Source: Endocalyx cinctus (taxonomy: Eukaryota; Ascomycota; Sordariomycetes; Amphisphaeriales; Apiosporaceae). Taken from it: a DNA stretch of 64,000 nucleotides. The notes under the pieces are model-generated. The model saw only the letters and a list, made by a program, of their open reading frames with translations. It searched no databases and had not been told where the DNA came from. Positions 1 to 39,414 of the stretch are shown here, piece after piece. Position 1 is the first letter of the stretch, and every line of letters begins with the position of its first letter. The position numbers and the translations under genes are program-made. The stretch is taken from positions 1-64,000 of the forward strand of contig BCKC01000009.1 in NCBI GenBank assembly GCA_001600455.1, written 5' to 3'.

Positions 1-95
1 CCTAACCCTAACCCTAACCCTAACCCTAACCCTAACCCTAACCCTAACCCTAACCCTAACCCTAACCCTAACCCTAACCCTAACCCTAACCCTAA
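1..95. repeat. Telomere repeat tract (CCCTAA)n
   Basis: An uninterrupted array of the hexamer CCCTAA runs from base 1 to base 95. In this orientation it is the C-rich strand of a TTAGGG telomere at the left chromosome end. The array stops abruptly at unique sequence with no degenerate transition zone. TTAGGG is the usual repeat of filamentous ascomycetes. Confidence 0.98.
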
Positions 96-8367: not shown

Positions 8368-11300
8368 TCAACCACTCTTTATACCAGCTAGTACAAGTTC
8401 GTAGTAAGCTCCACGTTTCTCCAAAAGTCTTTCGTGCGAACCCGTCTCGACAATCCTCCCCTTCTCCAAGACGAGGATCACATCCGCATTCTTGATTGTG
8501 CTTAGTCTATGAGCGATTGTTATAGTCGTGCGCCCCCTCGACGCTTGCTCTAGTGCCTCTTGGATGAGGGCTTCGGATTGGGCATCGACGGCGGATGTAG
8601 CTTCATCCAGTGCCAATATTTTTGGGTCACGAACGAGGGCCCGAGCCAGCGCCAGGCGTTGTTTTTGCCCTCCGCTGAGTTGACCTCCGTGATTTCCCAC
8701 TGCCGTATCGAAACCGTCACTATTGATGTATTGGGTTAGCAGAGAGACAAGACTCTATCGGTAATCAACACAACGGTAGCTTACGGCAGTGACGTGATAA
8801 AGTCATATATGTTCGCTGTCTTGCACGCATCTACCAGCGCCTGATCTGGAACACTCTCACCGACGTCGGCGCCAGCCAGAAGATTCATCTTGATTGATCC
8901 TCTAAAAAATGCCGGCTCCTGACCGACGAATCCGATACATCGGCGGTAGTCGCCGATGTTTAGCGATGAGATGTCTAGCCCATCAAGAAAGATTGCACCC
9001 GTGGTAGGATCGTAAAATCGTTCAAGAAGCGACACGATTGTGCTCTTACCGCACCCGGTACGGCCGACCAAAGCAATCGAGGATCCCGCCGGAATAGTAA
9101 AAGAGATATCACGGAGGGCAAGATGTTGTGGTGCGCCAGGGTAGGCGAAGCTCACGTCTCGAAACTCGATGTGGCCGAGCGGAAAGTCGCCAGACAGTCT
9201 GATGCCCTTGGATGATTCGGGGTCTATAGTGGAAACCCGGGCAAATAGGCGTTTCAAGCCGGAGGCGGATCGATGGGCCTTGCCGATGTCGGGAGTGAAT
9301 GAGAAAAGCAGGCCAGCGGAGTAAGCGCTCATGATGATAGAAGCAAAAACAATGACGAATTGTAACAGAGTGTATTCGCCACGAAGCACGAGAGATCCTC
9401 CGTACCAGAATCCGAGAGCCATTGCTGCGTTGGCGCCGGCACGTGCGACAGCAAGCACTGCAGACGCCTTGACGCTGGCTTTGATGCCCTCCTTTGACGA
9501 CAATTCCAGTCTCTTTTGATAGTTTCTGAGAATATCAGGCTCGCGTGTCAACGATACTACGGTCTGCATCGCCATCACGGCTTCTCCGGCGTAGGCGGCT
9601 GACGCTCGAGCGTGTTTCTCGTTCAGCTGTTCAAATTTGCTTATGGTCCAGAGGCCAAAAAAACCACTGGCGACCAGCAAGGGTATGAGAGAGGCACAAA
9701 CTAGTGCAAACTTCCAGCCGTATACGAGACCGACAATCAGGCCGCTGACGAGAGTGGACACGGCAATCAAGATTGTACCCAAAGCATTACCGCTGATGCC
9801 TGCGAGGTCTGACACCTCGGTAGAAAGAAAGCTTGTCAGAGCGGCGGCAGAGTTCCCCGGCTCGTCGAAAAACGCGATATTCTGCGAAAGAATATGAGTC
9901 AATGCGCGTCGTCGAGTGCGATGTATCAGACGCTCCGAGAAAACGCCAAGAATCGATCCCTGAACGGCAAATGCCGCCGTCATTATGATTGCAAGCAAAA
10001 AGAACATCCACGCCCAGAAGTAAGGAGCGGAGCGGACACCGTAACCAAGATGGTAAGGGTCCACGAGTGTTTGGACAGCGTAACCGAAGAGTATTGCCGA
10101 TGCGGGCTCTTCGAATCCTGCGAGGATAGAGAAAATAATGCCGACAAGAACAAGTTTCCAATCCGCGGCACCTAAATCAAGGACGAACTTGATGATCGAA
10201 ACGAATGAGTCCGGGGACGCCTGTCTTTCGACGGGGTTCGAACTCAGTTCGGGTGTGGAAGAAAGATTGGCCTCTTTCTCGTGCAAATCGTCCGCAACTC
10301 TCTTTTCCACCGGTCCTCGAACTCTAGAATCTGTGGATATTGGATACTGTCCGTGGCGGCTTACGACATCGGATTGATCTTCACTTGACTCCTTCTGGGC
10401 GTGGACAAGCTGGAAATAACGCCCACGTTGACTCATCAAGTCATTGTGCGTGCCCTGCTCGACAAGTTTCCCGCTTTCAAGAACAGCAATGTGGTCAGAT
10501 TGCCGAATGGTCGAAAGCCGGTGGGCTATAACAAGTGTGGTGCGCCCTTCACCGGAAGCCCGTAGCGATTCTTGAACCTTATTCTCTGTTTTGGTGTCGA
10601 GCGCGGAGGTAGCTTCATCTAAGACAAGTATCTTGGACTCGGATACCAGGCACCTCGCAATCAGTACTCGCTGTTTCTGACCACCAGATAGCTTGCAGCC
10701 TTGAAATCCAACGAAAGTTTCGTATTGATCTGGAAGAGACATGATAAAGTCGTGTGCGTGAGCAAGCTTAGCCGCTCGCTCTACTTTCTCCCGTCTGTCC
10801 GCTGCCGATAAGGCGGCGGCTCTCCCGTCTTTGAAGCCTATTTCTATGTTCTCGAAAACGGACGTGTCAAACAAAAACGGATCCTGGTTGGCGACCTGTA
10901 TCTGACCTCTCAGCCACCGAATATTAAGATCCTCTATGTTCACGCCGTCGAGGGTAATTTGCCCATCAACGGGTTCGTAGAAACGCATGAGAAGCTTGGC
11001 GATTGAGCTTTTCCCCGCGCCAGACGAGCCTACGATAGCAGTCGTTTTACCAACAGGAAACTTGACGCTGAGGTTCTCGGTCACCGTGACGCCCTGGCGT
11101 GACGGATATACGTGCGTTACACCCCTGAATTCGATGCTGCCTTGGAGGTCGTCGAGTATCACACCTTCTGTAGAGGATGAGTCTATCGGGGAGGGTCGGC
11201 GTAGCATCTGGAACATCTTTTGGGCCGCGGCCGAAGCTGCCGAGAATGTCTCGGCAGTGTGCGCGACACTTAGCACGGAGAACGCAGCGGTCTTAAAAAT

Positions 11301-12294
11301 CAAGACGATAGCGACTACCGCCATGAGGGAAGTTGAGTGTCTACTCAAGAAGACGGAGCCTTGCCAGAAGGCGAGTGCCACGTTGAGATATCCCGTGCCT
11401 ACGGTAAGGCCGAGAAGGCTACTCGTGAATAGCTTGAGAGCCGTCCCTGCACTTTTCGCTTCGCTTAGGTTACCATCATAGTTCTGCACCACCGACTTTT
11501 GCAGCCTGAGGGCTGTAGTCTCCCTGATAGAGACTAGTGCATCCTCGGCGGCCGAGCTACTGCTCGACCGGGCTTGGACAGAACGTTTGGAGTACGGAAC
11601 GGAAATTTTGTGGCCAAAGTGGAAAAGCGCGAGGGTGAGGACGAATGAGCTGGAGAGGATCAACGTGAGCTTCCAGTACAGGATCAAACCGACTATCCAA
11701 GTCGCAAATAGAGTTCCGGTTGCGGTGATTGCGATGGAAAGCTTTTGTGATAAAGCATCCTGTACCGCGTTTAGATCTGCACCAAGTTGCGCAATGATCT
11801 GGCCGGTTCCGATGCCGTCGAAGATGGCCATGTTCTGACGTAGGAGGCTAGCCATGTACTGTATCCTCATCTGGCGAGTCATTCGAATCCCTGTGTAGGA
11901 GAAGCCAGAGAGTGCAACGAACCAAGCTATCAGAGCTGCCGCAGCTATGTATACAAGATACAGAGCTGATAGGTTTATGGCGTAATACGAGTCCGCATTG
12001 ATGTGATGACCACCCTTGTCATCGGCAAGAACGTTGACGAGCCGACCAAGAACTACCTGGAAGAAGGTTAGATAGAATAGCGCGACGTGGCCCTAGATAT
12101 CATACTGGCGGTAAGGTGACGATAACACCAGCGCCCAAAGCACTGATGGAGCTGATAACGATGACAAAAGCATCGGTGAGCGTAGCAAACTGGAATAGAG
12201 ACACGAAAGAAGCCTCGGAGTCTGGAAACCGTAGTTGCCGTTCCAAGATCTCGGTCTTGCGCGTCGACACGGACGGGACAGGTACAAGAGCCAT
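8368..12294 (-). CDS. Full-length ABCB (MDR/Pmd1-type) ABC exporter
   Basis: Three exons (12294-12106, 12056-8785, 8719-8368) join in frame to 1270 residues, typical for TMD-NBD-TMD-NBD exporters. The first half has Walker [10 protein letters not shown], signature LSGGQKQR and Walker [13 protein letters not shown]. The second half has Walker [10 protein letters not shown], signature LSGGQKQR and Walker [13 protein letters not shown]. Both transmembrane halves carry the [16 protein letters not shown] loops typical of the family. It would sit in the plasma membrane and export hydrophobic compounds. Intron 1 (49 bp) has GTATGA, a CTAAC branch site and CAG. The gene is apparently intact and is the nearest exporter to the RiPP-like locus at 17-21.8 kb. 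A role in exporting that product is inference from position only. Confidence 0.93.
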
Positions 12295-14128: not shown

Positions 14129-15536
14129 CTAGAGTGCGTGTGGTGTCTGGTAGATGCTATCGGCTTTGTCTAAATCGGCGTATGGATGATTGGGTACCAC
14201 GCGTCCGGTCATGGTATATGATTCGCTCGCTCCATGCGACATCATGCTATCGTCGCGGCTGGCGCTCCCCGTGATGAAGAATAGTGGCACACGGGAGACC
14301 CCGTCACGCACACTCGTAATCACAGACTCGACTCTACGATGATGGAAAATGGGATAGAGTGTAGGCAAGCATGCTGCTATAATTCCCACACCGACTTCGA
14401 CATACCCCCAGATAAGAACATTGGTCTCGGTACCTGTGCAGTTGGTTAATAACAATGGAAAATAGGCCAAGTGCGAAAGCTAGAGGGGAGTTGAGGCGTA
14501 CCGAATGTGTCACGAGAATCGGGGTTAGTTAGGAAAATATTCACCGTAACGATGGCAAGACGAGCGGTGCCTGCTGCGACCGAACTGAATCCAATAATGA
14601 GCTGTCATGATCGGAGTTGAATTGCATTGTCGCCACTTACCCCAGACCAACAAGAAACGTTAGTGAAATTAGAACTTTCTTTCGCATGGCCATCTGAAGC
14701 TTCCAGATCGGTGGCAGCGGGAGCGACAGGACAGCCAAGTCGGTCGCGATATCGGAAGCGGCATGAGCCAGCTGGATAGCTTTGTATTTTGAGCATTGCG
14801 TCTTGAATTCCTCGAATGTCCCCCATATCAGTTTAAGGTCGTGACCATTGCACTCTAAGACCGTTGACAAGAAAAAGGCAAGGGTCCAGAGAGCGATAAA
14901 CACAAGAATCGCGGCAGAGGCGATCTTAAACCCAGATCCAATGAAGATACGGCGATAAAACATAACCACGCTGCACTTCAAGGCGCCAAGCGTGAGAACA
15001 GTCAGAACTGCAGAAATGGCTCCGAACTAATACACGTGATGAGCTCAAGGATTCTTGAACTGGGAGGTTATACTGGCCGAGTTTGCTTACGATAGAAAGT
15101 TGATTGTCACGATACCCATCCAGCGAAATTCCCGTCTCTGGGTCGTACAGTGTGTGGTAACCGAGCACTCTCTGGGAAGCGCCTATAGATCACGCTCATC
15201 AACACGGGATGCAAGGGTGCGAATGACAGGGTGCTCATACCATAAACAAGGATGATGGCCAGAGCCAATTGGAGAAGCTGGACACATTTGATTAGCAAAG
15301 CACATTCGCAAAATGCCCGTGACTACAGGTTCAGGAACAAGAAAACCCACCAATGCCGCGAAGACCAACCAATCGTCGGTTGCCCATCTGGCCGCCTTGA
15401 TGCGACGTGAGCAATATCGGAGAGCCACACAAGCGGAAGAAATGACAAAAAGAACAGACGACGCGACATAAATGCCAGCCGGGGTGGGAGATGATGTCAC
15501 GGCATAAACGCCAGCCGGGGTGGAAGATGACACCAT
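14129..15536 (-). CDS. Fungal rhodopsin-domain (SAT4 family) integral membrane protein
   Basis: Six exons (15536-15351, 15277-15241, 15182-15091, 15026-14641, 14584-14502, 14433-14129) sum to 1089 nt, or 362 residues. It has about seven hydrophobic segments. The family blocks are visible: RWATDDWLVF after TM1, YGASQRVLGYH, KCSVVMFYRRIF in mid-protein, an external loop with paired Cys (LECNGHDL, TQCSKY), ATDLAVLSLPLPPIWKLQM, and a terminal TETNVLIWGYVEVGVGIIAACLP motif. Family members are plasma-membrane proteins of poorly known function, some resembling the PTH11 receptor and often found in secondary-metabolite clusters. The cytosolic tail is Ser/Asp-rich. No defects are seen. Confidence 0.87.
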
Positions 15537-17015
15537 GCTGGAAACAAAGCAGCAGGAAAGTCTGCGATATCGACAGTAGCTGGAAAGAAAATGAAAAGAC
15601 TCGATCTATTTACAAGAGAAGGCTAGGTGTACATGTTATATATCAAAAACGGCAGTCCTGAACAATTCTCCTTGCGTTGCCCCTCCATGCGTTATCATTC
15701 TAATAATAGGTCAGTGAATGGCACGGTTGGAGTTGTGACGACCCCTTGATCCTATGGCATCCTACTGTACTGTCTTATATCGAACCTCAAATCCTAGAAA
15801 CAAAGGAGCCCTCAGTTGCGCTACAGTCGAAGAAGTACTCTTTTCCAAACCCCTGCTTAGCCGCAATACCTGCGGGGCGTCCTTTTTACACCCCTATAAC
15901 TTCGTACAAAGAACTGGCGGATGACATGTCCGCTTTAGTGGAGTTAATAAATCCAACATGGTTTGCACATTAGCAACGGGGTTTTTCTTTACGGCGTTTA
16001 TCTTAATTATTTATATCGCAAGCGGTTAGCGCTTAGAAAAAGATCGAATAGGTTATAGATAGCTAGTTGGATTGCAAATAATTAGGCTTGTGGTAGTAGA
16101 AGCCTTCGTATCTATTGCTGACGCGAGAAATGGCTATAATAGGGTTCGCGATAGCTTCACTTTCGAGGCGCCAGCGAGGTCTGAAGAGCGAGCATCCATT
16201 TCACTGCTGTTCTCTAGGCTCGCTTACTACGCTAGGATGTGCTACGAAGGCACTGAGCTAGACTTCAGAACAGGTGTGGCGGATATTGATATCATTGGTC
16301 CCCGACCATTCGTGATGCATCTCTCCTATTGCCTATCTTCTTTGTATTTTGATTGGATACATTACGGCTTATGTCGTAGCGATTGGAGTTGCTCATGCAC
16401 AATCAATATTTCAAACCGACCAGGGAATAATGTAAACCCCTGAAACATGCATATAGCTTAATTGGTACAGTAAGAAGGTTCATAAATATTTTCAATTAGG
16501 CAGTCTTTATTATTAGTACCGAATCCGGTATCTCTTTTAAAACATTTCTTTCAATATTACCGGATTTGGTAATTACCATTTACAGTATTATACTAAATAA
16601 AGAAAGTTGGGAAGGGTGTACCCATATAAGTGGGGAAGAGCTCTCCTGAACCAAGATGATCCACTTTTTCTTTTATTTATTGAGAGGGAGAAATTAATTA
16701 GATAGAACTTAACATTGCCTATGTTTATTCCTCTTTCGTAACACTATTATTATTACTTTATAAGTGATAATAATAATCCAATTACTCCTAAGTAATATAA
16801 AAATTGGGAGTATCATAAAATGAAGAGAGAAATAGGCAGAGAAGACAGGGAGATGTAAATGTCACAAGGGGTATTATTGAAAGCAACGTCGAGAGAAACG
16901 AGCACATGATTAGCTTCCTAGGGAGGGCATTAAGGTTTATTTATGCACAAGTATATCGCAACAGGTACCGAGTATATATCGCCTGAGGAAGTCTCACTAT
17001 CCTGTCTCTATCGCG
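15537..17015. other. Intergenic region with possible gene remnants and hairpins
   Basis: Open frames at 15746-15973 and 16072-16443 (plus strand, 75 and 123 codons) are longer than average for this AT content, but I cannot name them. The second contains a GVADIDIIG stretch before a hydrophobic segment and could be a membrane-protein remnant. Near 16518-16572 an inverted repeat, TACCGAATCCGGTA versus TACCGGATTTGGTA, has one mismatch. Around 16745-16780 an ATTATTATTACTTxTAAGTGATAATAATAAT palindrome occurs. These suggest a degraded MITE. Confidence 0.45.
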
Positions 17016-17111
17016 CTAGATCTTGTAGTCGACGTCAACATTCAGCGGGGTGTCTCCATCGCGCTTGATCTTGTAGTCGACGTCAACATTCAGCGGGGTG
17101 TCTCCATCGCG
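17016..17111 (-). repeat. Two 48-bp tandem units inside the RiPP precursor
   Basis: Units 17064-17111 and 17016-17063 are each 48 bp (16 codons) and differ at a single base: CTTGA versus CTAGA on the plus strand, which is Lys versus stop in the gene. Such near identity indicates recent duplication or homogenisation. Partial similarity continues for about 15 bp below 17016. Confidence 0.92.
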
Positions 17112-17286
17112 TCTCTCTTTGAAATCGCGACTGTAGGCAATAGGGGTGCCAGGGGCGCCTGTTAGATATGTTATTTGTGTTTTTCTTTTTCAAAACACAA
17201 GGTGATTGGCAGGAATAATTACCCGAAAGCAGTGGTGATGCCGAGGACACGGCTGCGAACAGAAAGGCGAGAGTTGTGTACCTCAT
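17016..17286 (-). CDS. Kexin-processed RiPP precursor peptide (dikaritin-like)
   Basis: Two exons (17286-17223, 17158-17016) join to 68 residues; the intron (GTAATT...CTAACAG) is in phase. Residues 1-17 form a classical signal peptide ending in VSSA. A short leader (SPLLSGAPGTPIAYSRDFKE) leads to Arg37-Arg38. Two units follow: DGDTPLNVDVDYKI, Lys53-Arg54, and the same 14 residues again before the stop. Dibasic sites flank each unit, as in ustiloxin, phomopsin, asperipin and epichloecyclin precursors, which are cut by Kex2 in the Golgi and then oxidised. The Tyr-Lys-Ile at each unit end has the Tyr-x-Ile spacing of the Tyr-Ile ether in ustiloxins. A DUF3328 gene lies about 1 kb away, divergently transcribed. 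The number of repeats is small, and the end is cut by a stop where a Lys codon would lie (see findings). The core boundaries are inferred. Confidence 0.82.
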
Positions 17287-17431
17287 GGTTGGGTATCAGA
17301 AACAAGATGTGATTTTGTCCAATAATTGCGCCTAGTAACTGTGATTGTTTGTGTTTCACTCTATGTTGGAAGACTGAGATGAGAGTCAGAACCAAGGCGT
17401 CAAGCCGTTGTGAGGAAGTGGTTCCTTAACT

Positions 17432-17956
17432 TTATGTGCGTTCTGTTCGACGGACAACAACCCCGAAAAATGTCATTCCCTCGGGTGCATCCGTATAACC
17501 CTTGGATAACCAATTATTGGAACTACAAATCTCTTGGACTGTGGGTAATCTGGCTTTCTCTGGTAACAGGGCTTCCCACGCTGGTGTCCGTATCCAGGAA
17601 CGCTTTGATCCCGATGCGTGCGCCCCTCTCCAATTGAAATGAATAGCACCAACGAAATCGCGATGATAACATGGTCGTATTTCTGCTTCGACGCGCAGGT
17701 TGCATGATCGTCCCTCTCCAATCTTTGCTTCGCCTTTGCGCAGGCTAGAATAAGGCCGAAGGTGTGTAACACTACATGATCCTTCCTGGCCGATATTTAC
17801 CTCACCTTTGCGCAGGTCATGCATCACTTTCCTAAATAGTAGAACGGAGCCACCCTTATGAGCGATACTTCGAGATCCAATACGAGGAGAATTTAATAGT
17901 ATAGGCCAATCGAATTCCAAATCGACCACCCATCTTTCACTTTTGCCTAGCATCAA
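17432..17956 (-). CDS. Unassigned ORF with internal repeats between precursor and UstYa gene
   Basis: An uninterrupted 174-codon frame that I do not recognise. It includes two related segments, DLRKGEVNIGQEGSCSV and SLRKGEAKIGEGRSCNL, about 24 residues apart. The matching DNA repeats share CTTTGCGCAGG. It lacks a signal peptide and clear membrane segments. Because it overlaps the probable promoter zone of the precursor, it could equally be non-coding with repeated DNA. Expression data would decide. Confidence 0.3.
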   Translation of the reverse strand: MMLGKSERWVVDLEFDWPILLNSPRIGSRSIAHKGGSVLLFRKVMHDLRKGEVNIGQEGSCSVTHLRPYSSLRKGEAKIGEGRSCNLRVEAEIRPCYHRDFVGAIHFNWRGAHASGSKRSWIRTPAWEALLPEKARLPTVQEICSSNNWLSKGYTDAPEGMTFFGVVVRRTERT

Positions 17957-18264
17957 GAAGTGAGGATCGGAGGACTAGGAGCGGAGTTGAAATCTGGGAA
18001 TTATCCTGGCGGGTTACTTGGCTCCCGCGTTTATTCTAAACTGTATGAGTGGCTGTTATAGTGTATGACTTGTGCGTAAAGGCTTTTGGGTGTGAGAAAA
18101 AAGGCAAAGCATTCATACCAGAGCCCGCCAGTGCAGATTCTGAGTTTTCATTCCCATCTCCCAGGCAACAACATCTCGTGCGACCAACTGCTCTTGGTTT
18201 ATGCAGTGTATTCATGTTGAGATATTTGAAGCCCTTACTATCTTGCGAATAAGAGAAAGTCACG

Positions 18265-19303
18265 ATGTTGACTGATGAAGAAACCCCATTCATCACTGCC
18301 CCAGGCGACGAAGAAGAGAAACGCACCGTGGGTCGTCGGATGACTCATAGAAGATTTGGATATCCGATGCTGCACAAGGTCGCTTGTCTCTTTCACATTT
18401 TGCTGGTTACCTTGAACGTCACAATATTTGCAACATTGACAAAACCCATGAGAGTATACCACGAGTCAGACGATATGGGTTTGGATCGAAGATTGAGTGA
18501 GCTTTGACACAGAGATGTCTTGATGGCTGCTAATCATCAAGTTCCAGGTTCTTCCAAAGCTGCACTTGAATATGTCTTCGAAGAAGGGCAACCCCCATAT
18601 GAACCAAGTCCATTTGTTGGGCAGCCACGGGAGGAGCTTGACCAAGCTTGGGACAACCTACTACGAAGCAAGTTATACCACTAGACATCTAAAGCGGTAC
18701 TGACTGACATGATTAGCCCCCACATTCAAAATCACTGAATCTGAGCTAAAGGAGTTGAATAAGTCATCCATCGCACTAAAGGATGGCAGCGGTTACATTG
18801 CTTTTCTTGAAGCTGACCACATGCTTCACTGTGTCGTTAGTTTATATCACACGCTAAGGATACCAGTTGATTCTGACATCTCTGTAGAAAAGACTATATC
18901 AGACGCAATATCCACAGCATTATCCAGATGTGCTGGCAATCGGGGGACTCTCAGTTCACCACCAAGGTATTTCCAAAATAGTCACCCTCTCTTTCACCAA
19001 TTGGAGTGTTTTATACCTTTTGAGAGCTGATTAGTAACTTTGCTCATACTAGAACACTGTCTTGAAGTTCTACGGCGCGGCATTATGTGTAACGCTGATC
19101 TCACGGTGAATACCTACCTATGGACAGGCCCGGGGGAGATGGATGGGGACAAGTCTGGCCCGAGGAGATGTACAAACTGGAGTCGTATTCAGTCTTGGAT
19201 GGATGAGAGACGTTTGAGCATCATCACAAATGATGAGTTATTGGATATTGTGGTGCCAATGTCTGGTGACTCCGATGAGACGAGCGCCATGAACAATGAG
19301 TAA
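18265..19303 (+). CDS. UstYa-like (DUF3328) oxidative cyclisation protein
   Basis: Five exons (18265-18496, 18548-18667, 18717-18865, 18918-18966, 19053-19303) sum to 801 nt, or 266 residues. One membrane anchor lies at about residues 38-58 (VACLFHILLVTLNVTIFA). Next come YEPSPFVGQPREELDQAW (family PSPEVDxAW block) and GSGYIAFLEADHMLHC. The two HxxHC motifs that define the family are HMLHC (152-156) and HQEHC (182-186), the latter completed across the last intron, followed by LEVLRRGIMCNADLT. UstYa proteins act in ribosomal peptide clusters, forming ether or C-C crosslinks on the core peptide; single-pass membrane topology is usual. Intron 2 appears to be GC-AG (GCAAGT...TTAG); the GT alternative breaks the frame. 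The usual third block near the C-terminus is present as PRRCTNWSRIQSW. Confidence 0.88.
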
Positions 19304-19985: not shown

Positions 19986-21773
19986 ATGGGCCCAACTACT
20001 ATGAGACCCCTCGAGATTCTCATAGTAGGCGGAGGTATGCTCATTCTTTCATGAATAGTTGACAAATAATGGAAAAAGTACTTACCAGATGTTTATCGCA
20101 GGCATCGGCGGTCTCATGGCCGCTGTGGCCTTCCGTTCACAAGGTCACAATGTGACGGTATGCGAAATCCCGAATGGAACTGTTTCTTATATGAAAACTC
20201 ATCTTGCGAACTCAGATTCTTGAGAAAACGGAACTGGGTCAAGAAACCGGAGCGGCGGTGCACATTTGCCCGAATGCCCACGGCCTACTCCGCCGATACG
20301 GTATCCTGCCCGAGGAGTTTGGTGCCAACCCCGTCAACGGCGTGAGTACTCGCTTTAACACAAAGATATCAATCGTCTGATCCAGAAGCAGGTAGCAGAG
20401 TACTTCCATGACGGGACTTTGCGAAATGAAATCAACATCGCGAAAACGGCATCGATGTTCCCACACGTGAGCGCCCAAGCACAGGTATATACAGGACAAA
20501 CTTAACGAATGGAACAGTTGTGGGTTTTAGGCCACCGAATCGCGCTTCATGACAAACTCAAGGACGTAGCGACCAGTGCGGACGGCATCAACAGACCTGC
20601 GGTTTTGAAGACTTGTAGTCGGGTTGTTGAGGTTGACCCTGTGACAGCCACTGTAATCCTTGAGGACGGCACCAACATCAATGGAGACCTAGTCATCGGC
20701 GCGGATGGCGTAAGCGTAAGTGTGCTTACCCTCATGATATGTGCGGCATTCCAGGTCAAAATCGGACAGCCAGAGCTAATATTACTTACAACATCAGTCC
20801 GTCACAAGGAAATATGTCGCAGGAGATATAAAGCCATTCGCTTCGGGGAAAAGTGCTTTCAGGTTCTTCGTTCCGCACGATAGAATACGTGCTTGCCCCG
20901 AAACTCGCCATCTTGTAGAACAGGACGGAGTAATGCGCATCTGGTTCGGAAACGACCGACGGCTTGTTATGTACCCCTGCAACAACAATACGACAGTCAA
21001 TTGCGCAGCAATCCACCCGAGCTCGGAATCGGCAGCCAAAGTAGATGACGGTAAGCTTTTTGTTCGGAAACGTGCTTTCTCGTTCCATATACTGACCAAC
21101 ACTAGGTTGGGGCAGTGGTGTCAGCAAAGACACTCTCCTTGCCGTGTATAAAAACTTTGCGCCCGAGATAATGAGTCTATTCAAATTGGTGGATCCTAGC
21201 ACACTGCAGATTTGGTCGCTTCTAGACATGGACCGCATCCCGCGGTGGACAACCGGACGGCTAGCACTTCTCGGTGATGCTGCGCATCCAACCCTACCCA
21301 GTGAGTTCCCCTCGTAATTTACAGAATATCATCAAGGCTAATAGCTGGTATAGATCAAGGACAAGGCGGTATGAACGCCAAAGATACACCATGTTGATAC
21401 CGTCTCCAGGCGTATGCTAATATGTTTTTAGCCGGTATCGCAATGGAGGACGCGGTCTCTCTAGCAGTACTGATGCCACTTGGCATCTCGCCTAATGAGA
21501 TTCCCGAGCGACTAGAATTATATCAGGAAGTCCGCGATGAGAGAGCACACAGAATCCAAGAAGTATCCAGGGTAACTGGTGCCGATCTCGACGACCCTAT
21601 ATCCAAGTCGCTCAACAGTGAGTAGGCCTTTTAGATTCCGTACGGATTTGTCGCACTTACGCTAACAAACACCCGAAGTGTTCGAGTTCACTGTCTACAA
21701 CTTCGGACATGACGAATGGCAAAACTCTACAGAGCAGCTTAGTAATTGGGAGTCTTCGAGAACCCACATCTAA
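19986..21773 (+). CDS. FAD-dependent monooxygenase (salicylate-hydroxylase-like)
   Basis: Ten exons (19986-20034, 20102-20157, 20216-20341, 20392-20466, 20518-20715, 20798-21050, 21106-21300, 21354-21368, 21432-21617, 21679-21773) sum to 1248 nt, or 415 residues, as usual for group A flavoprotein hydroxylases. The motifs are in order: GGGIGGLMAAVAFRSQGHNVTILE (Rossmann FAD fold) split by introns 1 and 2, GADGVSSVTRKYVAG (DG motif), and GRLALLGDAAHPTLP then NQGQGA (GD motif). It hydroxylates an aromatic or otherwise activated substrate using NAD(P)H and O2. It follows the UstYa gene on the same strand with 680 bp between, so it may modify the same product; that is inference. Exon 8 is only 15 nt, and the last intron uses an AAG acceptor. 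Apparently intact. Confidence 0.9.
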
Positions 21774-22299
21774 GAAGGCGAGAGTGCTAAGCTATAAGTC
21801 GCAAGATGAATAGTGTCAAGGTAGAAGCTCATAGAAGCTTCTAGAAAAATAGGTGACGACGACTATTTGCCACCCTCGCAAGTATAAGACCAACTGTATT
21901 TTCCACTCTTTAGATACACACAGACACACAATGCAACGTTCGTTTTCAACCCATTGCTCGATATTCATGACCATGTCGACCGGCCAGCTCAACACGAAGG
22001 GAACCTTCCATAGATAGAAGATATGATCTCTATATGTGCCGGCTTGGTCACGATTGATAAAGAAAGCAGTATTGTCCGACTAGTAGACTGCCTGAGCTGG
22101 TGCGTCATTTTTGCCATTGGCTAGAGTACGAGCTATAGGAAATTAAAGGAATAGATATTATCAATGCGGAAGAGAATATGATGTATTTATTCTGAATTCA
22201 CGACATCGTTCTTATATAGGCCAATACCATGCAACCCCCCTTAGCGGTACACACCCCTTAACGGTACAGCAAAAAGTCTCCGCACCTATACAAAACCAT
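21774..22299. other. Intergenic spacer between convergent genes
   Basis: Separates the FAD gene from the decayed PNP-NACHT gene. No gene seen. It contains a palindromic-looking AAGCTCATAGAAGCTTCTAGAA near 21825-21846. Confidence 0.5.
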
Positions 22300-24305
22300 A
22301 ATACTTTACTATATTTAATTATATCCGGATTGGTGTCTTCTGTCGTAACGGAGATCTGCTGAAGAGAACCGATCCATTCGGTATCACATACGTATTCTCG
22401 AATCCGAGGAAGAGGTTGACTGCTGCACCACAAACATAACTTTGATGGATGTTCCCGTGCTTCTTTGAGTAAGAATCTAATGAATTCCTCAAAATCTCCC
22501 TCCCAGCGATCCCGACCTGGTACGTACTGCGGGTCTCCCTTGGTAACGTTTTCCACCTCATCGAGTCCATCAAGGAATATATAATAGGTGATAGAAAGCC
22601 CCGTTATGAGAAAATTAATCAATTCTTCCACGTACTTTGTGTTGTTTTCGTTAATGTTCATCATCCCTTCGATAGCAGTAGGGACGTTGTTGGGTTCCGT
22701 CGCGACCAAGCAGCCTACGAGTTCGCTGGCAATGCTGCGGAATAATTGGTTATTGGATATATAGGTATCATTGGACAGGAATTGGTAAATCGTAGTTATT
22801 ACGTGACACGTTCCTGGCAACGTAGTCGAAAGCTGCTGTGCATAGGAGTGTCTTCCCTGCCCCATGTTTCGCATTCAGCCAGATAATAGGGTGATGGTCT
22901 GAACCTTTGTCGATCCACCTACTAAATTCATCACGAGCGAACAGCCATTTGCAAGTACCAGGATATATATCCTGCAGTGAGTCATTGTAAGTCGCGTCGC
23001 TCGATCGGTTATCGATCTGTAGCCGTCGTCTCAACGCTGTCAATTTTTGGACTATCATGACTATATTAGTCCTGGATACTCCTTTTCGAAATTAAGATGT
23101 TGGGATAATATGACACGTACTCATTTTCTCGTGGCGGTCCTCCATCCTTTGCCGTTGCGCAGCTCTCCGTTCGAGGTCGGCCTTACTGCTTTCGTGCAAG
23201 GCTAGTTTTCTTTGACCTGCAGCATGATTAATATACCGATCCAGTGTAATAACCATTGTAAAGACGTAGATTCTCACGTACTTTGTTGCTCATGGTTTAT
23301 TTTATCGAGTTTATTATCCACTACGAATATTTTTCATTATGGCCTATGCATTCCAAACGCACAACTGACACGATTCTACTCACTACGCTCGATATCAGTC
23401 CATGAGGGCATGGTAGCCACATTCACGGGCCCTAGGACCTCTCTTGCGTATACCCCAGCCGCCAAGGCGGCATATTTGTGCCAGTCATCATTCTTGTGAG
23501 AGTCCGAGTAATCATAAATACCCCTGATCACAAGGCATCTAAGTTGATTCATCATCCCGGCAGCTTCCATCTCGAAGCAAAGAATGTTAAGCTCGTCGTC
23601 AGAGAAGTGCCTGTTCCTCGCTTCGGCATCTCTCATCACCACATTGTCTGACGCGATGGTTCCGTAATGCGTGGTAACTCTACGGGATTTCGTTCGCTCT
23701 TTTCGTTTCACCAGTCCTTCTTCCGAACAATCTCTGCACTCATCTTCAGATTCCTCATAATTAGATTGCCCCACATTACTAGTCCGATGAAGGTAGTCTG
23801 ACCGATACAATCGGTCCAGGGGGGGACGTTTGTGGTACTCTGGCATATATTCCATTCGATCCATATGTTCAGAAATTCTATCAGGCTTCCTTGGATCGTT
23901 TTGTAGTCGCTTGACCTCGTGACAAGATCTGGACATATCTTTGACGACTGTGGCAGCGCTGGTAAGTCCCACTGTTCCCATGGGCAAACAACCAATCACA
24001 ACGTGGTGACCAGCCAGGCGACCGAAAGCGTATAAGTTGTCGTCATTCACCATGGCCATTTCTGTCTCTTCAGGTTCCAATTCCTCATCTAGCATTGCGC
24101 ACGCTACTTGGTACTCTTCCTCGAGAGCGCAGATCCAACCAATGGTAAATAGTTCAACATTGAACTTAGACCTCGGAGGCTCATCGTCGCCGTTAGAGTG
24201 TTCGGGCTGAGAGGTAATGTCATGATTATTCCTCGTTGTAGTAAGGTCTTGGGACTCGTTGGAGGCCAACGTTAGGAAGGGCGGTATAGTAGAGATTGCC
24301 TCCAT
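22300..24305 (-). pseudogene. Truncated PNP-NACHT (STAND/NLR-like) protein gene
   Basis: The 5' exon (24305-23376) encodes an N-terminal phosphorylase-like domain: FTIGWICALEEEYQVA, YAFGRLAGHHVVIGCLP and, near the end, CFEMEAAGMMNQLRCLVIRGIYDYSDSHK. The central part that normally holds the MVGIGGG and LGDVVVS blocks is missing. A NACHT segment follows with Walker A HGAGKTLL and Walker B-like YYIFLDGLDEVE. The reading frame shifts between KTLLCTAAFDYVARN and FLSNDTYISNNQLFRS. After TEDTNPDI the frame ends without the rest of NACHT or any WD40/ankyrin repeats. Intact members are fungal nonself-recognition or cell-death proteins. The combined deletion, frameshift and truncation argue for a pseudogene. 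Confidence 0.72.
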
Positions 24306-26192
24306 TTGATCAACAGTTAAAAAGGTTGCCGTAGTGATAGAGTGTCCATTGTGGATGGGAATTGAAGTAATAATGCAAGAAAGATGGGTTGCACACGAGA
24401 GCGTTACTGTAGAAAGAACTGTAATGTGATCCTGGTATGAGTTTATTGGAAGAAATGGTACGGGAAGAGAAGAAGACGATTAAAAATAAATAAAACTATG
24501 CGACATGTGACTTTAGAATAAACCGAAAATCTGGAATACTGTAAGGAAATGAGGTGCGTGGAAGTGTAGGATGGGCGCAGTTATATAGACAAAGCAGAGC
24601 CGGTAGCTAGTTGTATTTCTCGAGAGCATAATGGTAACTTCATTGATTCTTTTCCATCCTAATTCTCTGAGTTAGGAGAAACTCTCCCTTATAAACACGA
24701 TCCCTTCCTATAATTCGCTACCTTTCGGGTAGCTGTAGGGGCGCTGCTGGTTGCATCCCCCTGCCCTGTAGTCCTTATCTCTGACATATACTAATTGTGA
24801 CGAGTACTTCATAATTAAGTATAGAAGGGATTAAATACTAGAGACCCTAGGTGCCTATTAATATTAAAGCCTTGGGTCGGGATTAACGGCTCACTCGCAG
24901 GCAAAAGCCGAATTTCTGTAATAATGAGAACTTAGGGCGGAAAATCGGCATCGTGAGTAGTTATCTCGGTATATGAATGTAGGCTCGACTCTAGAAAATA
25001 ATAGCAATTAGTAAAAAATTAACTCCCCGAGCACTATTGATTGGTTGTGTGTATCATGACTACTCCGTACTATCGTGTTTATCCAGCAATGGAGGGCTTT
25101 CCATATAAAAGTTTTCCCTTCTTTACACTTTCAACTTACACCAAGTTCGGTCAATAATTCGTCCCCGTATTGAGACCTAAGCAAGCGGCCGCTTTAATGT
25201 AGGGCCTCAGGGAAGAGCCTGAGCTAAGCAGAGCTTGAGTAGAGGCAGCAAGGGGTCATGTGACGTCAAGTGACAAGATTGACAGATTGACGTAGTATAA
25301 GAAACGTCCTTTAATCCTACCTATCTAGTCCTATAGATGCAGGCTAGGATAAAAAAATCGACAACCGATTATAACCAGACATTGAGTCTCACTACCAACG
25401 GCCTGCATTGATCGACCGTCACCTTGTCTAATTACCACTTGAGCTTTTAGATCGTCATATTACCCCGCCAATATAAATTATAATGACGAAGAATAGCATT
25501 TGGAGCTGTCAATGACAAATAAATTTGAGCGTATCATTGAATTTCGTTCGGTGTATACTAACAAGGGTCGAGTAAAACTTTTCCAACATGAGGGGCTTAG
25601 TTCTTGTTTATTAGGTTAATTAATAGGTAATCACTTATGTTACCCGTTTCATTCGCCGATTAGGGATAAATGGGGGGACGACCGGGATCAAAAAAAAAAA
25701 AAAAAAAAAAAAAAAAAGATGAAAAATAATTGTGCTGAGTTCCGTATGGGGGGGAGGGGGGAAACCGATAGAGCGACCTGGCAGACTCAGGCAAACCGAA
25801 TTTGTGAGCCGTGACGCTCTTAGTAATTGATGGAGTGAGTGGAAAACAACATATAAAAGACCAACAACATTATTGAAATAACCCAAATCAATATTATACT
25901 TATGAAAGATACCAAAAACACTGGGAGAAATTAAGTCTGACTAATTACGTCGAATTCATCATCTTGATTTACATTCCATCATGAATCGACAGCAAATCAT
26001 TCGCGTCGACCAAATGTAGGAGTCAAAGTCCACTTTCCTGGACGCCTCCCTACCTGCTAACCAAGTAATCGACACCAAATAGTTGGGACAAGTAAGTCAC
26101 TCCAGTCAAGATTTAGAAACCGTCAAATGCATCATTTTTGATTATTTTATTTTCTCGCTCTTCTCTAAAGAAAATCGAGGAAATACCGCTTC
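24306..26192. other. AT-rich intergenic region
   Basis: No gene remnant recognised over 1.9 kb. It contains a 28-base A run (25690-25717), listed separately, and TA-rich sequence. Confidence 0.5.
25690..25717. repeat. Poly(A) tract, 28 bases
   Basis: A homopolymer of 28 A on the plus strand with no recognisable retroelement 5' of it. It might be the tail of a decayed retroposon or simple slippage. The length may be affected by sequencing. Confidence 0.8.
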
Positions 26193-28355: not shown

Positions 28356-30011
28356 CTATTTAGTTTTTTCATCCAAGCCAAAGTTAGTTTCTAAATCAGT
28401 TCTTAATCCTAAACTCTTCTCCATAAAAACAATCAAAAACCCTAAAAGACTTAAGGCTAATCCAAACCACCAGATACCTTTTAAGCTAATCAAGTACACG
28501 CTAATAACCTCATTCCAAGTATCGGGGTTTAATACCTGCTTAGTAAAATGGGCATCGCTAGCGTACGCGTAAGCACCACCGCCTACGAGCATACTTCTGA
28601 CCTTATCATCGTGAATACGGAATACATTTTTGTCAAATATGGCATTAAAAAGAATAGAGGGTAACGTTACGCCCCAGATATAGCCAAATGTCTTAATAAA
28701 AGAATATATAGAAGCCGAAGAAGCCACGTCAGACTCAGAAAGCGCGGCCATGATGGCAGGAAGCATTGTCGAGATTGGAATGCCGGCTCCGGCAGCAGCG
28801 AAAAGCTGATAAAATACCCACGCGGCAGCCGGCGTGCTGGTGTCTAGAAGGGTAAACAGTCCGAATCCCAGGCTACTTAGTCCAAAAGCAACCCAATGCA
28901 ATATCTTGTAAGCCTCCGTTTTGCTGAGTATAACCCCGGCAACTCCGGCGGCTATAAGAATGCCCAGGGCTGATGGAAGGAAGTAAACGCCTGATAGGAG
29001 CACATTCGCTCCAACGCTACTTTGTAGATAGATAGGAATAAAGAAGAGCGTGGCTTGAGCCACGACTGACGAGAGGAAGGTTAACCCGTAAGCAGTGGCC
29101 GAAGTTCGGTTCCTAAACAAGCGCTCCGGAACCATGGGATTTGTCGCAAAATGCTGCTGCACGTGGAAGCTAGCCCACCCTACTGCGCCGAGAACCAGCG
29201 GTAGGATAACTCTGAAAGAGGACCAAGGATTCTGGATCCCACCCGTTACGAGCCCGTATAGGAGTGATACCATACTTGGGATAAATATAAAGTTTCCTAG
29301 TAGGTCGACTTGACGAAGCTTTCCTAATATAGTTGCCGACTGCGTGGTTGCGCCCGTTTTCATTTGCATTGTGAAGAAGATTGTCACTAGTGGTACGGCG
29401 CATATAGGTAAGTTGATGTAGAATACCCATGGCCAATTTCCACGACCGAACGCGCCGCCCAAAACCGGTCCCAAAGCAGAAGCGACGCCGGCCCCGGCGT
29501 TGACGAACCCAAGGTACTTGCCCCGGTGTCTCAGAGGAACCAGGTCACAACACACGACATCGATCAGCACGTAGATCCCGCCAGCGCCCGCTCCTTGTAT
29601 TGCCCGACCAGATATAAACATAGCTGGGCCTTTTGAACCTCCGGCCAGACCACTACCAAGAATAAACAGGATAAGGCAGACCATGACGGGGATCTTGCGT
29701 CCTAAAATATTGGCCAGTTGTCCAACAAGCGGATGGACAGCGGAAGCCGCGATGACGAAAGAGTTCGCAATCCATACATATTGTTCCTCGCCGCCAATCT
29801 CGTCCACAATTGTAGGAAGGGGAGTTGTGATGATAGTTGCATCAAGCGCGCAGATGAAAGCGAGAAGGGAAAGGGAGGCAATTGTAATCCAAAATCGAAG
29901 AGATCTTGGCTCGGATCTTGCTTTAGCAGGTGAATCTGCACGCATCGAATTCTCGCCGGAGGCAGGATGGTCGTTATCACGAATCGCGTCAATATTAATT
30001 GGTGATTCCAT
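28356..30011 (-). CDS. MFS transporter, DHA2 (14-TM) drug:H+ antiporter type
   Basis: A single-exon gene of 551 residues with a charged N-tail and 14 predicted hydrophobic segments. Diagnostic motifs are LDATIITTPLPTIVDEIGG after TM1, GQLANILGRKIPVM (motif A) between TM2 and TM3, and ALGPVLGGAFGRGNWPWVFYINLP (motif C and the following loop). DHA2 proteins export small organic compounds at the plasma membrane and are frequent resident transporters of secondary-metabolite clusters. It lies directly downstream of the P450 at 30579-32541 on the same strand (567-bp gap). Intact. Confidence 0.92.
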   Translation of the reverse strand: MESPINIDAIRDNDHPASGENSMRADSPAKARSEPRSLRFWITIASLSLLAFICALDATIITTPLPTIVDEIGGEEQYVWIANSFVIAASAVHPLVGQLANILGRKIPVMVCLILFILGSGLAGGSKGPAMFISGRAIQGAGAGGIYVLIDVVCCDLVPLRHRGKYLGFVNAGAGVASALGPVLGGAFGRGNWPWVFYINLPICAVPLVTIFFTMQMKTGATTQSATILGKLRQVDLLGNFIFIPSMVSLLYGLVTGGIQNPWSSFRVILPLVLGAVGWASFHVQQHFATNPMVPERLFRNRTSATAYGLTFLSSVVAQATLFFIPIYLQSSVGANVLLSGVYFLPSALGILIAAGVAGVILSKTEAYKILHWVAFGLSSLGFGLFTLLDTSTPAAAWVFYQLFAAAGAGIPISTMLPAIMAALSESDVASSASIYSFIKTFGYIWGVTLPSILFNAIFDKNVFRIHDDKVRSMLVGGGAYAYASDAHFTKQVLNPDTWNEVISVYLISLKGIWWFGLALSLLGFLIVFMEKSLGLRTDLETNFGLDEKTK

Positions 30012-30578
30012 TTCTTTTTTTTAATAGAAGAAAAATCATGTAGGTGATTGAAAAATGATATATGAAAGTTCGAAACGTGCCTGGGAAGAAGGAATGGCAA
30101 GACAGTTAACTAAGCATGATTCCTTCTTGAGCGCCTCATTTGCACAAAATGCTTAGCTTGAAAAGGGACCATACCTACATTGAATAAGTCGGAAAAAAAA
30201 GAGAAAATAGGAACGGAGAAAATATAGCAATGGTAGCCAAGCTTTCCGATCTTACTAACTCCTCATATCATTTTTCATTATCGTCCAACAATTAAAATTG
30301 CAGGGGGTTCCTTAAAGTAACCCTATAATATGCGTGACAAATCCTTGAAAATACATAATGACACATTACCCAACAACTGCCCACCCACTACACTACCTTC
30401 CAATTACCGGCCTTGTAAAATTTTCTTCTTTTCAATTAGTGCACACTACCATGAATATATTTATTGTAGAAATATGCATGTTGGTCACCTATCTGTTAAA
30501 CAAGTACCCATATTTGGTTACATATTACGTAGGTTTCAAGCAGGCTACCCCGGTCACTTCCCGACCAACTAGATCCCC
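30012..30578. other. Short intergenic region
   Basis: Contains the presumed MFS promoter and the 3' end region of the P450. No gene seen. Confidence 0.5.
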
Positions 30579-32541
30579 CTATTGCGCTCTTCGGTTTAAT
30601 TCAATAGGTATTCTTCTTCGCACCTTTACACGAAGGTCGTTGAAGAGGGGCACATTTAACCAGATCAACGGAGTCATTTTAGGCCGGGTCTTCATTGGCT
30701 CGATGTCGTAATTCAACACCATGGTGGCAATGAATATTTTGACTTCGTTGATTGCGAAGAACCGCCCTGGGCATGCGTGCAGGCCGAAGCCGAAGCCCAG
30801 GAACGCCTCGTCGATAGTAGCTCCGCTTTTAGATTTACTCTGTTTTGACAGGTTTGCCTGTGCGGTCGTGGTCTCGGTCGTGGGCGCCGCCCCAAATGCA
30901 TCGAGAACATTACCGATGGCATTGGCGTCTGCAAATCGAAATGGCTTGAATGCTTTGGCATCCGGATAGACCGAATCGTCATAGTGTATTGGTTCTACCG
31001 GAATCATGACCTTGGTGCCGAAAGGCAACTTTATGGCCGACTCGTCTTGCCCCAAAGTGATACCGTGTGGCTGAATGACCTAGTTTGCCCGAACTTGTTT
31101 AGAAAAAGTATGATGTGGATTTTTAATAGGGTTAGATATAGGCAAATAGATAAGTCTTACCCTCCGTGGTAGTCCTACGCTGTTGAAAGGTGTCAATCTC
31201 ATCGATTCACGGATAGTCGAGTCTACAAGCTTGAGCTTGGTAACTGCCTGCCGGGTCCATTTTCCGCCGGCCTCTTTCAGGACTCGGGCACTCTCTTCTC
31301 TCAATATTGATATAACGGACGGGTCTGCGCAAGCTAGATCGAGAATCACGTTCTGAGCCGTGTAACTGGTGGAATGCAATGAGATATCATTCATATAAAC
31401 CAATCGATGTAGGACCTTCTCGGGCTTTAGCTGCTTTGGATCGCCCGTAGCATAACATTCATCGATGATCCATTGAAGGCCGTCTTTCTGTTGTAGTCGA
31501 TATTTTACGTTAAAAACTCTCTGTACCCGCGTGGAGAGGCAAAGCTGGGGCATAGCTACTCACCGGAGGAGACCAGTCATATGATGGATCTACTTTTAAC
31601 CTGGCAGTTTCATGCAGTCTCCGCTTGACGAGTGGTAAGCACAGTGCGGAAACCCTCTGAAGCAGGAAGTAGGAGGTCCAGCCTACGGTTAGACCAGCTA
31701 AATATCTGAATGGCCAAGGAGTTGAGTTTATCATCACAGCTCCGATGAAGAAGCAAATAGAATGGTCCTGGACTCGCTCTATAAAGTCCATGTTGCGACC
31801 TAGCTTCATGTTCAGTTTTTTGTTTTCTTTTCTTCATTATTATTCGGGTAAAGAAGGACTTACACATATCTGGCCCACAGAAGGCGATGTTTGCAGCGCC
31901 TCCGATAACTCGCAGTGCAGACTTCCATATGTCGACGCTCTTCCACTCCTCGGTCGACAAACCCCACTCGCGGCGGAATCCTTCCTCGAGCTCCGCCGCA
32001 ATCGGAGGAGTGAGGATTCCAAGGTTGTGAGTGAGCTGATTCCGGATCAAGTTCATTTGAAAGTTGTTCTCCGCCACCTCATCATCCCAGATGGTCCATT
32101 TCGCCTGGATAGTCTCGTTTGAGGTCAAATGAACGTCTAGTATGGTGTCTGGGAGGCCGTAGACCTTCTTGATCTGCTTGGGTGGGACGACCAAGGACAT
32201 TCCCCGGTCAATCGACGGCAGTACAAAGAAGGAATTAGACCGGGAGTGCTAGGAGTCGAAGTGGATACAACGGTTAATAAGAACCCCTGCTGTCCAAGAA
32301 GTACAATGATTAGAGGACTCACCTTGGAGTAACCATCAAAGACCCATTTTCTAGTTTGTGTGATGGACCGAAGATTTGCTCTCGTCCGCGCGAATAATTC
32401 TTTACGTAGGCCAACGAAGGGTTGGGTTTTGAAAAAAGATATATCATTGTCTGATTTGCCCTGGCTCATATAGATGAATGTGATCAATACCAACAAGCCG
32501 AAACCAAGGGCCAACTCGTTATAGAATTGCATATGGTCCAT
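30579..32541 (-). CDS. Cytochrome P450 (microsomal, fungal)
   Basis: Starts at 32541 with an N-terminal membrane anchor (LALGFGLLVLITFIYM) and continues through at least five exons with phase-consistent introns. Seen in order are FVLPSIDRGMSLVVPP, AFCGPDMCRNMDFIERVQDHS, I-helix NDISLHSTSYT (the Thr is retained), K-helix RESMR (ExxR), FKPFRF (PERF-like), and the haem loop FGFGLHACPGRFFA with the Cys ligand. The order and the VRKxYGLPD-like KKVYGLPDT block resemble fungal P450s related to the ent-kaurene-oxidase group and many cluster P450s. Substrate unknown. Neighbours on the same strand are an MFS transporter downstream and an FAD-linked oxidase upstream. Intact. Confidence 0.9.
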
Positions 32542-33413
32542 GATTAATAGGTAAGCATGAAGTAATTGGTTCCGGATAATATGCTGAATTGTCAAAAAGG
32601 TGGATAGATGGTGTGGGTTGAGAGAGTCATTGAGCCCTATAGGGACGAACTTTATATGCGATCTTGAAAAGATAACAGAGAGAGCCTGGAGGACTTCGTA
32701 AAGTCTTCCACCTTCGGAACAAGCGTTACGTAAGCCAAGACCCAAAGTACAGCTCGACAAAAAGATACCTTAGATACATTCAAAGGTTAGATCCTGAGTA
32801 TTTAATATAATATTAGTGTGGAGGTACTATGGACTTGCATATGTACGTAGCATGTAGGCTTTCCAACAGAAATACTGCCTAGGGTTCAGGTGTTCAAGCT
32901 TCAGGCGAAACTAACTACCATTTGGGGGTTTTTATGGAACGCTTAAAACTAAGAGCCAACAAAACTTTCTATTGGGTAGGATCTAACTAGCAAGTTGATG
33001 TTTAATGATACACCATAGGGGTGCTGTGTTGCAATCAGTTACCCTCCAAGCTACTGATCATCCTCATCATCTCATTAAATGCTCGCGTATGTGTTGTGAG
33101 CTGGGAGGGGTTTTCTCCATTGAACGAAACAATTCAATGCATTATCTATTGAATAATCGAGGAGAAATATATTGCTTAAGCATCCAGCCTTTGCAACTAG
33201 TGATTATATCACCGCAACCAAACTTTACATAACTAGTTAATACTCCCTCCTATTTATTTCGCACGGTTGAAAAGTTCGGGGAAAAAAAAGTTAATATATA
33301 TTACGGCTATATAATAGTTCTAGTAAAATTATTAAATTACCAGCGTAAGCTTCAGGGATGGCAAGACCATGTTACGGTCTGTTATATTTGTGTCTGGATA
33401 TTTATCTACCTAA
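32542..33413. other. Intergenic region between FAD oxidase and P450
   Basis: P450 promoter and FAD-gene 3' flank. Open frames such as 33005-33232 are short and unrecognised. No gene supported. Confidence 0.5.
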
Positions 33414-38576: not shown

Positions 38577-39368
38577 AATGACTGGATGTGGTATAAAAAC
38601 AGGTTCTGCCTGATCTTAAGATAGCCGGATAACAAGAGGTTAAAATGATTAGATGACTGGAGATGATAGTAATTTGTAAATGCGTGGTAGATCTCGTCCA
38701 GGAATTGGCATCAAAACAGAGAGGGAAAGCCGAGTAACCTGTGAAAAGAAAAGCGGATAGAAAGGGTCAACTGGACTAGAGACAGGCTGGATTTTGACAA
38801 GAGATAGACCTGTACAAAAACTTTCAGCCTCAAGACAAGACAGTAGTGATAATTACGATTTGCCAAGCTGGAACTTTCGTCGCAGCCCGGGATCAGAAAC
38901 CAGCGATGGCCGGTTTCACTAAGAGGGGGAGGGGGTTATTGCCATCGTACAGTTGTTCCAGACAACTACATTTATTATGGGCTAACTAGCCCTAAGAAAC
39001 TGTATTCATGTATCTACTCCAACAAATTTCGATTTTACATATTGGCTTGTACTCCGTACCAACTGCATATTTATGCATCGAAAGCATGCAATGCAAGTGG
39101 GGCTAACCTTGGCTGGTAGGATCTCTTACGTGTATCCTATATATCAAAAAAAAAAAAAAAGTTAGGTTCACCGCTACCTATAAGGAATCAAGTTACATCA
39201 TAAAATAAACATGGAAGGGTGATGCAGCAAGCATATCTATCCTGCCCACCGGCATAAATATACCATGTAACAGCTAAGAGGACCTAATTACTCTTAACGA
39301 GCCTGAAAGGGGCGTAACTAAGAGTTGTCTTAAGCGCTTTGTCTTAATTTAACCGACAGTCATGCATA

Positions 39369-39414
39369 TGCAAGCTCAGTTCTCGTGCATATGCAAACTA
39401 GAACTGAGCTTGCA
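39369..39414. repeat. Perfect 14-bp inverted repeat with 18-bp loop
   Basis: TGCAAGCTCAGTTC (39369-39382) is exactly complementary to GAACTGAGCTTGCA (39401-39414). The right arm overlaps the start of dispersed repeat copy 2. GCATATGCA also occurs twice in it. Not seen next to copy 1. Confidence 0.85.

Follow-up and report, generated by a model that had tools for sequence, protein, structure and literature searches.

A repeat-precursor and UstYa gene pair in Endocalyx cinctus, a probable divergent member of a conserved fungal peptide family

Does a short gene with two identical peptide cores, lying beside a UstYa (DUF3328) gene in the fungus Endocalyx cinctus, belong to a peptide-producing system, and does its core stand alone or form part of a wider family? 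We addressed this in the first 64 kb of the 2.44-Mb contig BCKC01000009.1 (C9) of the 44.8-Mb genome, a stretch hereafter called the window. We consider it likely that the locus is of the repeat-precursor and UstYa type, encoding a ribosomally synthesised and post-translationally modified peptide (RiPP), and that it belongs, as a divergent member, to a conserved family of precursors with cores of the form DGTTEFDPDxx[F/L/Y]; judged from its sequence, it is a probable natural-product locus. The RiPP-type reading follows from the repeats, the dibasic sites, the UstYa motifs, the pairing at paralogous loci, the tracking of UstYa class with precursor family and the co-location in other strains. 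What is observed, all at the level of sequence, comprises the gene models with their repeats and motifs, the membership of the family, and the fact that precursor and UstYa class lie together, as described below.

The precursor gene and its UstYa neighbour

The precursor gene lies on the minus strand (17286-17016) and consists of two exons, whose spliced coding sequence stays in frame and, in this sequence model, encodes a protein of 68 residues, MRYTTLAFLFAAVSSASPLLSGAPGTPIAYSRDFKERRDGDTPLNVDVDYKIKRDGDTPLNVDVDYKI. Exon 1 (17223-17286) encodes the signal-peptide-like segment MRYTTLAFLFAAVSSASPLLSG, which resembles the start of the paralogue at locus L034 and shows a hydrophobic peak of 2.09 from residue 6, being signal-like by hydrophobicity alone. 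The predicted intron (17159-17222, 64 nt, GT-AG) has a possible counterpart at the matching position of both clear paralogues of the precursor. Exon 2 (17016-17158) carries the leader, two core units and the stop codon. The first core, DGDTPLNVDVDYKI (17067-17108), is preceded by Arg-Arg (RR) and followed by Lys-Arg (KR), and the second, identical core (17019-17060) is preceded by KR and directly followed by the stop codon. The two 48-nt units agree at 47 of 48 nucleotides, with the sole mismatch in the stop codon, and these 16-residue units with RR and KR are long enough for Kex2-processed repeat proteins (KEPs), whose tandem units between dibasic sites have at least eight residues. Downstream of the stop codon, about a dozen nucleotides (17004-17015, minus strand) resemble the start of another unit. 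A CCCTAA telomere array occupies window positions 6-95, which places the locus about 17 kb from the chromosome end, in a subtelomeric setting.

The UstYa gene is on the plus strand (18265-19303), and its model has five exons, four predicted introns, one of them GC-AG, and 266 residues. It matches PF11807 (UstYa/DUF3328) with an E value of 6.3e-36 and aligns over its full length with eleven relatives at 36-46% identity. Exon 1 (18265-18496) holds the start and a hydrophobic stretch at about residues 39-57; exon 2 (18548-18667) precedes the GC-AG intron; exon 3 (18717-18835) encodes the first HxxHC motif, HMLHC (residues 152-156); exon 4 (18888-18966) was placed, as was exon 3, with the help of the alignment; and exon 5 (19053-19303) completes the second motif, HQEHC (residues 182-186), and encodes a CNAD...W block, both supported by the alignment and the PF11807 match, before the stop codon. 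The initial annotation of this DNA had proposed a precursor with a signal-like start, a leader, two cores at RR/KR sites and an intron at 17222-17159, next to a divergent DUF3328 gene with both HxxHC motifs, and all of these were found, the two motifs after alignment with relatives. Splicing of the two genes and their expression are predicted from these models. A structure prediction for the relative P0003 (11 sequences) reached a predicted local distance difference test score of 52 and was not used, and a PDB search gave a single non-significant match (E 0.56), with none at E ≤ 1 for the alignment as query.

The divergent start codons of the two genes are separated by 978 nt (17287-18264). 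This region contains a 42-nt direct repeat (79%; 17703-17744 and 17775-17816), which could be regulatory.

A conserved precursor family and its UstYa class

The initial annotation knew of no such core among described families; that the core stands alone is not supported by the wider search. An alignment of three precursors, from the window and from contigs C3 and C2, brought up 34 proteins at E ≤ 10, of which 30 had E values under 0.001. All are hypothetical proteins (P0013-P0046); 24 have a named source, in every case a fungus, and ten are without an organism name. The named sources include Podospora, Xylaria, Cytospora, Hypoxylon, Septoria, Pseudocercospora, Paecilomyces and Aspergillus ellipticus, which we take to span Sordariomycetes, Dothideomycetes and Eurotiomycetes. 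Together the 34 proteins hold 86 units, in which D1 and G2 are invariant (86/86 each) and T4 (84/86), E5 (82/86), F6 (81/86), D7 (79/86), P8 (69/86) and D9 (82/86) are conserved. Position 12 is Phe in 52 units, Leu in 22 and Tyr in 10, and only nine of the 34 proteins have Tyr at all in any unit. Copy number ranges from 1 to 4, with three or four units in 20/34 proteins; neighbouring units are 16 residues apart in 28 of the 53 intervals, and, among 84 cases, DG[TSA]T is preceded by KR in 44 and by RR in 24.

A profile of these 34 proteins matches the second exon of the window precursor at E 5e-7 among 11,071 open frames. When the core alone was shuffled and the leader, the dibasic sites and the number of copies were left unchanged, none of 2,000 shuffles reached the real score (29.1 bits against a best of 25.7). 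As a lone query on the whole genome, the Xylaria member P0019 matched at E ≤ 10 in three places, each a family locus: C2:2214478, C3:4920261 and, at E 0.0092, the window. This search is an independent test of the window's membership. Like the Xylaria, Podospora, Cytospora, Paecilomyces and Septoria precursors, that of the window has an RDG-x-T start, 16-residue spacing and KR/RR boundaries, and its core keeps D1, G2, T4 and D9; unlike them, it has P L N V at positions 5-8, and Tyr at position 12, where the relatives mostly have Phe or Leu. By sequence, the window core thus appears as a diverged DGTTEFDPDxx[F/L/Y] unit and not as an orphan.

The pairing of a repeat precursor with a DUF3328 gene, noted initially in the window, recurs elsewhere in the genome. 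Two paralogous precursors were found by genome-wide protein searches that were blind to UstYa. The one at C3:4920261 has two units, DGTTKIDPDEGFNVKR and DGTTGMDPDEGF, begins with MRYT as in the window and lies 2.3 kb from a UstYa match. Used as a genome query, it reached C2:2214580 at E 5.6e-6, the window at E 0.1 and C14:160142 at E 0.88. The precursor at C2:2214580, with the units DGTTEFDPDTAFKARR and DGTTEFDPDTAF preceded by one more divergent unit, has a UstYa match 2.1 kb away. Stretches within 3 kb of such matches make up about 0.5% of the genome. The initial annotation had named homologues lacking a conserved repeat and a DUF3328 neighbour as the finding that would speak against it, and the reverse was found.

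The class of UstYa also follows the precursor family. Across the genome there are 48 matches to PF11807, many covering just one exon. A profile of the second motif block, built from the window UstYa and ten relatives, scored four UstYa genes, those of the window (115 bits), C2, C3 and C10, at 103-115 bits and the other scanned matches at no more than 49 bits. All four genes of this class, among the scanned matches, adjoin a family precursor. Just three named strains appear both in the list of UstYa proteins and in that of precursors: Xylaria curta, Paecilomyces variotii No. 5 and Aspergillus ellipticus. In each of them, the two matches fall on contigs of identical size (94,895, 124,012 and 353,065, respectively).

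Several observations weigh against placing the locus in this family with its own UstYa class. Four conserved residues, E5, F6, D7 and P8, are replaced in the window core. As a lone query against 5.8 billion proteins the window precursor gave 7 candidates, none at E ≤ 10, and its exon 2 searched against the whole genome found, besides itself, one weak match, C3:4920261, such that the first paralogue appears at E 0.52 only. The external profile lacks full independence, since the 34 relatives were retrieved with an alignment that contained the window, and the motif-2 profile likewise includes the window's own UstYa; its scan left out one UstYa match (C10:1593702-1594452). The match at C14:160142 looks like chance, with no precursor on the one strand translated and a position far from UstYa. 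Two of the five family loci have a single core: the C10 precursor, for which no signal exon is visible, and the fifth precursor, at C3:262419, which has a signal-like exon and stands beside a UstYa of another class. The matches of a composite query to these two loci (C10:865761 and C3:262419) arise by construction and were discounted. Finally, the same-contig pairing in the three strains is deduced from equal contig size, not from viewed neighbourhoods.

Possible product and alternative explanations

If the locus works as a RiPP-type system, the 68-residue precursor would enter the secretory pathway through its signal peptide, and Kex2 would cut after RR and KR, sites that are seen in the sequence. 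Once the basic residues were trimmed off, two copies of one peptide of about 14 residues (DGDTPLNVDVDYKI) would result. UstYa, as a dimer anchored in the membrane and binding two copper ions through its paired HxxHC motifs, would oxidise one peptide side chain in the Golgi lumen, by cross-linking or hydroxylation, and the modified peptide would then be secreted. Here expression, cleavage, the modified residue and any role of the flavin enzyme described below are what we infer.

The enzymatic part of this scheme is modelled on CctR, a DUF3328 protein described as a membrane-associated, dimeric, copper-dependent oxidase with paired HxxHC motifs (PMC12435403; this and the other papers cited here are used from the portions of their text available to us). 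By analogy with CctR (PMC12435403), the window UstYa may share its copper dependence, dimeric state and membrane topology. Like CctR and other DUF3328 copper enzymes it has the paired HxxHC motifs, with an N-terminal hydrophobic stretch where these have a membrane helix; unlike the window UstYa, a putative peptide oxidase, CctR acts on a non-ribosomal cyclic peptide (PMC12435403).

A broader proposal, which we regard as rather unlikely as a whole, would make the family a conserved system of oxidatively modified, secreted peptides of filamentous ascomycetes, with its own UstYa class and usually Phe or Leu in place of Tyr. The constraint on the core would then imply a conserved receptor or target and not a lineage-specific toxin. 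The window would be a subtelomeric paralogue that converged on the D-Y-x-I end of ustiloxins and phomopsins, and the rhodopsin-domain protein encoded nearby could belong to the system.

The initial annotation had compared the Tyr-Lys-Ile end of the core with the ether of ustiloxins, and a product of the ustiloxin or phomopsin kind, in which UstYa links the Tyr-12 side chain to Ile-14, is an alternative that we find improbable. In its favour, the end D-Y-K-I of the window core fits the D-Y-x-I of the ustiloxin/phomopsin core motif EDYXI (PMC6339444), and both copies would yield one and the same 14-mer ending in Ile. The ether, however, is not supported by conservation in the family. Among external units with another unit after them, position 13 is Lys in 44/53 and position 14 Ile in 1/53, so that K-I looks like a linker, and Tyr-12, as given above, is a minority residue (10/86). 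The window UstYa, moreover, belongs to the class found with DGTTEFDPD precursors. The tyrosinase homologue UstQ is essential in the ustiloxin pathway (PMC6514808), and none was seen near the window locus, a weak argument given that the Pfam scans covered most frames of 0-28 kb, apart from plus-strand frames at 17.5-20.0 kb and the majority of minus-strand frames at 8.5-12.5 kb, and can miss intron-split genes, as happened with the flavin enzyme until its exons were joined.

We likewise think it unlikely that the precursor yields a linear, pheromone-like signalling peptide and that the neighbouring UstYa acts on another substrate. A core kept across three fungal classes, as we assign them, is what a signal would show. 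Mating-factor and pheromone precursors of such build are reported to occur without DUF3328 neighbours, with three exceptions (PMC7329392). Against a signalling role, proximity to UstYa recurs at the paralogous loci, the UstYa class tracks the precursor family, and three other strains carry precursor and UstYa on equal-sized contigs.

Decay of a non-functional subtelomeric copy also has little probability, as the divergent core, the presence of only two units, the remnant of a unit after the stop codon, the closeness to the telomere array (about 17 kb) and the sister locus on C10 with one core and no visible signal exon are set against two units identical apart from the stop codon, an open precursor and an open five-exon UstYa gene with both HxxHC motifs intact.

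Neighbouring genes and relation to known peptide systems

Downstream of UstYa lies a gene for a flavin adenine dinucleotide (FAD)-dependent monooxygenase-like protein (PF01494; plus strand, 19987-21775, ends approximate), with several introns, whose joined exons match FAD_binding_3 at E 3.8e-18. The gene, suggested initially as one that might complete the pathway, is real, but the enzyme is only 25% identical to the one near the C10 precursor, and kin of the latter also occur by UstYa genes without a family precursor (L039, L042). Flavin enzymes are found near the C2 and C10 precursors, and a Pyr_redox_2 gene takes their place at L034. A conserved flavin enzyme was rejected as a fixed member of the locus: of the five family loci, three have one (window, L040 and L055), and that of the window is not closely related.

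On the other side of the precursor, a gene for a fungal rhodopsin-domain membrane protein (PF20684) lies on the minus strand (14129-15605, ends approximate), with its match at 14637-15026 (E 6e-26); its link to the locus is uncertain. It was rejected as a fixed third member, being above the Pfam cut-off at only two of the five family loci (window and L056), below it at L034 and L040, and absent from the single open reading frame tested at L055. We compared 39 of the 48 UstYa matches with 137 rhodopsin positions, drawn from at least 158 matches after dropping extra exons of the same gene. Among the matches listed, rhodopsin genes lie within 6 kb of 5 of 31 UstYa clusters against 1.3 expected (44 of 5,000 random shifts as high) and within 10 kb of 7 clusters against 2.1 expected (15 of 5,000), a weak and unspecific trend.

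The cytochrome P450 that had been considered a pathway gene looks instead like part of another cluster. The region 28359-41897 holds a major facilitator superfamily (MFS) transporter, two P450 matches, pieces of FAD_binding_4/BBE (berberine-bridge-type) genes and a second rhodopsin-domain gene. The P450, MFS and BBE genes begin about 9 kb past the UstYa gene and are possibly a separate secondary-metabolism cluster.

Elsewhere in the window, the ATP-binding cassette (ABC) transporter gene, also suggested initially for the pathway but for which no link to the locus emerged, lies on the minus strand (8380-12092); its product combines ATPase domains and two membrane regions. An HlyIII (PF03006, haemolysin-III-related) membrane protein is encoded at 2022-2798, some 2 kb from the telomere. 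On the minus strand, 22212-24479 contains pieces of PNP_UDP_1 and NPHP3_N (NACHT-like) proteins, which presumably resemble fungal genes of the NOD-like receptor type. Two further repeat precursors were seen in the genome, one with several LIYGYGYDKR units about 2 kb from a UstYa match (L035, 1815-2459; C4, about 480.4-481.1 kb), the other with SEIDVADAFKR-like units near UstYa matches (L017, 503-727; C6, about 30 kb from the contig start).

In its architecture the locus is similar to those of the dikaritins (ustiloxins, phomopsins, asperipin-2a and victorin), which have a signal peptide, Kex2-flanked repeated cores and a DUF3328/UstYa neighbour (PMC6514808, PMC9233826); the window locus has a signal-like start, repeated cores between dibasic sites that Kex2 may cut, and a UstYa neighbour. 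With ustiloxins, phomopsins and asperipin-2a it shares a core Tyr (Tyr-12 in both copies); unlike dikaritins, its core is of a different family, present in two copies, with no tyrosinase or peptidase in the scans made. Phe-ended cores, the usual kind among the external relatives, have a precedent in victorin, for which cyclisation through a C-terminal Phe is reported (PMC9233826). The precursor also shares the architecture of KEPs (PMC7329392, PMC6339444), 22% of whose genes lie near a DUF3328 gene (PMC7329392). Both KEP surveys (PMC7329392, PMC6339444) demanded at least three repeats, and with two units the window precursor is therefore KEP-like in build but no KEP by that cut-off. As 20 of the 34 external relatives have three or four units, these may figure in the survey tables.

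In the open full-text literature, with subscription papers mostly outside its scope, no paper contained the core or family motif strings. The conserved motifs listed in section 10 of PMC6339444 do not include DGTTEFDPD, nor is this motif described in the available portions of PMC7329392, PMC7099791, PMC9632046, PMC12435403, PMC12048977, PMC8403587, PMC9233826 and PMC6514808; the family may already be listed somewhere, for example in survey supplementary tables. What appears new here, by sequence comparison, is a precursor family of the repeat-precursor and UstYa kind, with the window as a putative divergent member. Three abundant types of Tyr-less precursors beside DUF3328 genes have been reported (PMC7329392, section 7), and the lack of Tyr alone is thus not new. 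Most repeat-peptide types are reported as restricted to one genus (PMC7329392, section 6).

The DGTTEFDPD core, for its part, is kept over what we take to be three fungal classes, mostly without Tyr, and travels with its own UstYa class. If confirmed, the family would be an identifiable set of substrates for a little-understood family of copper enzymes, and the window would provide a naturally occurring variant with which to study the site of the modification.

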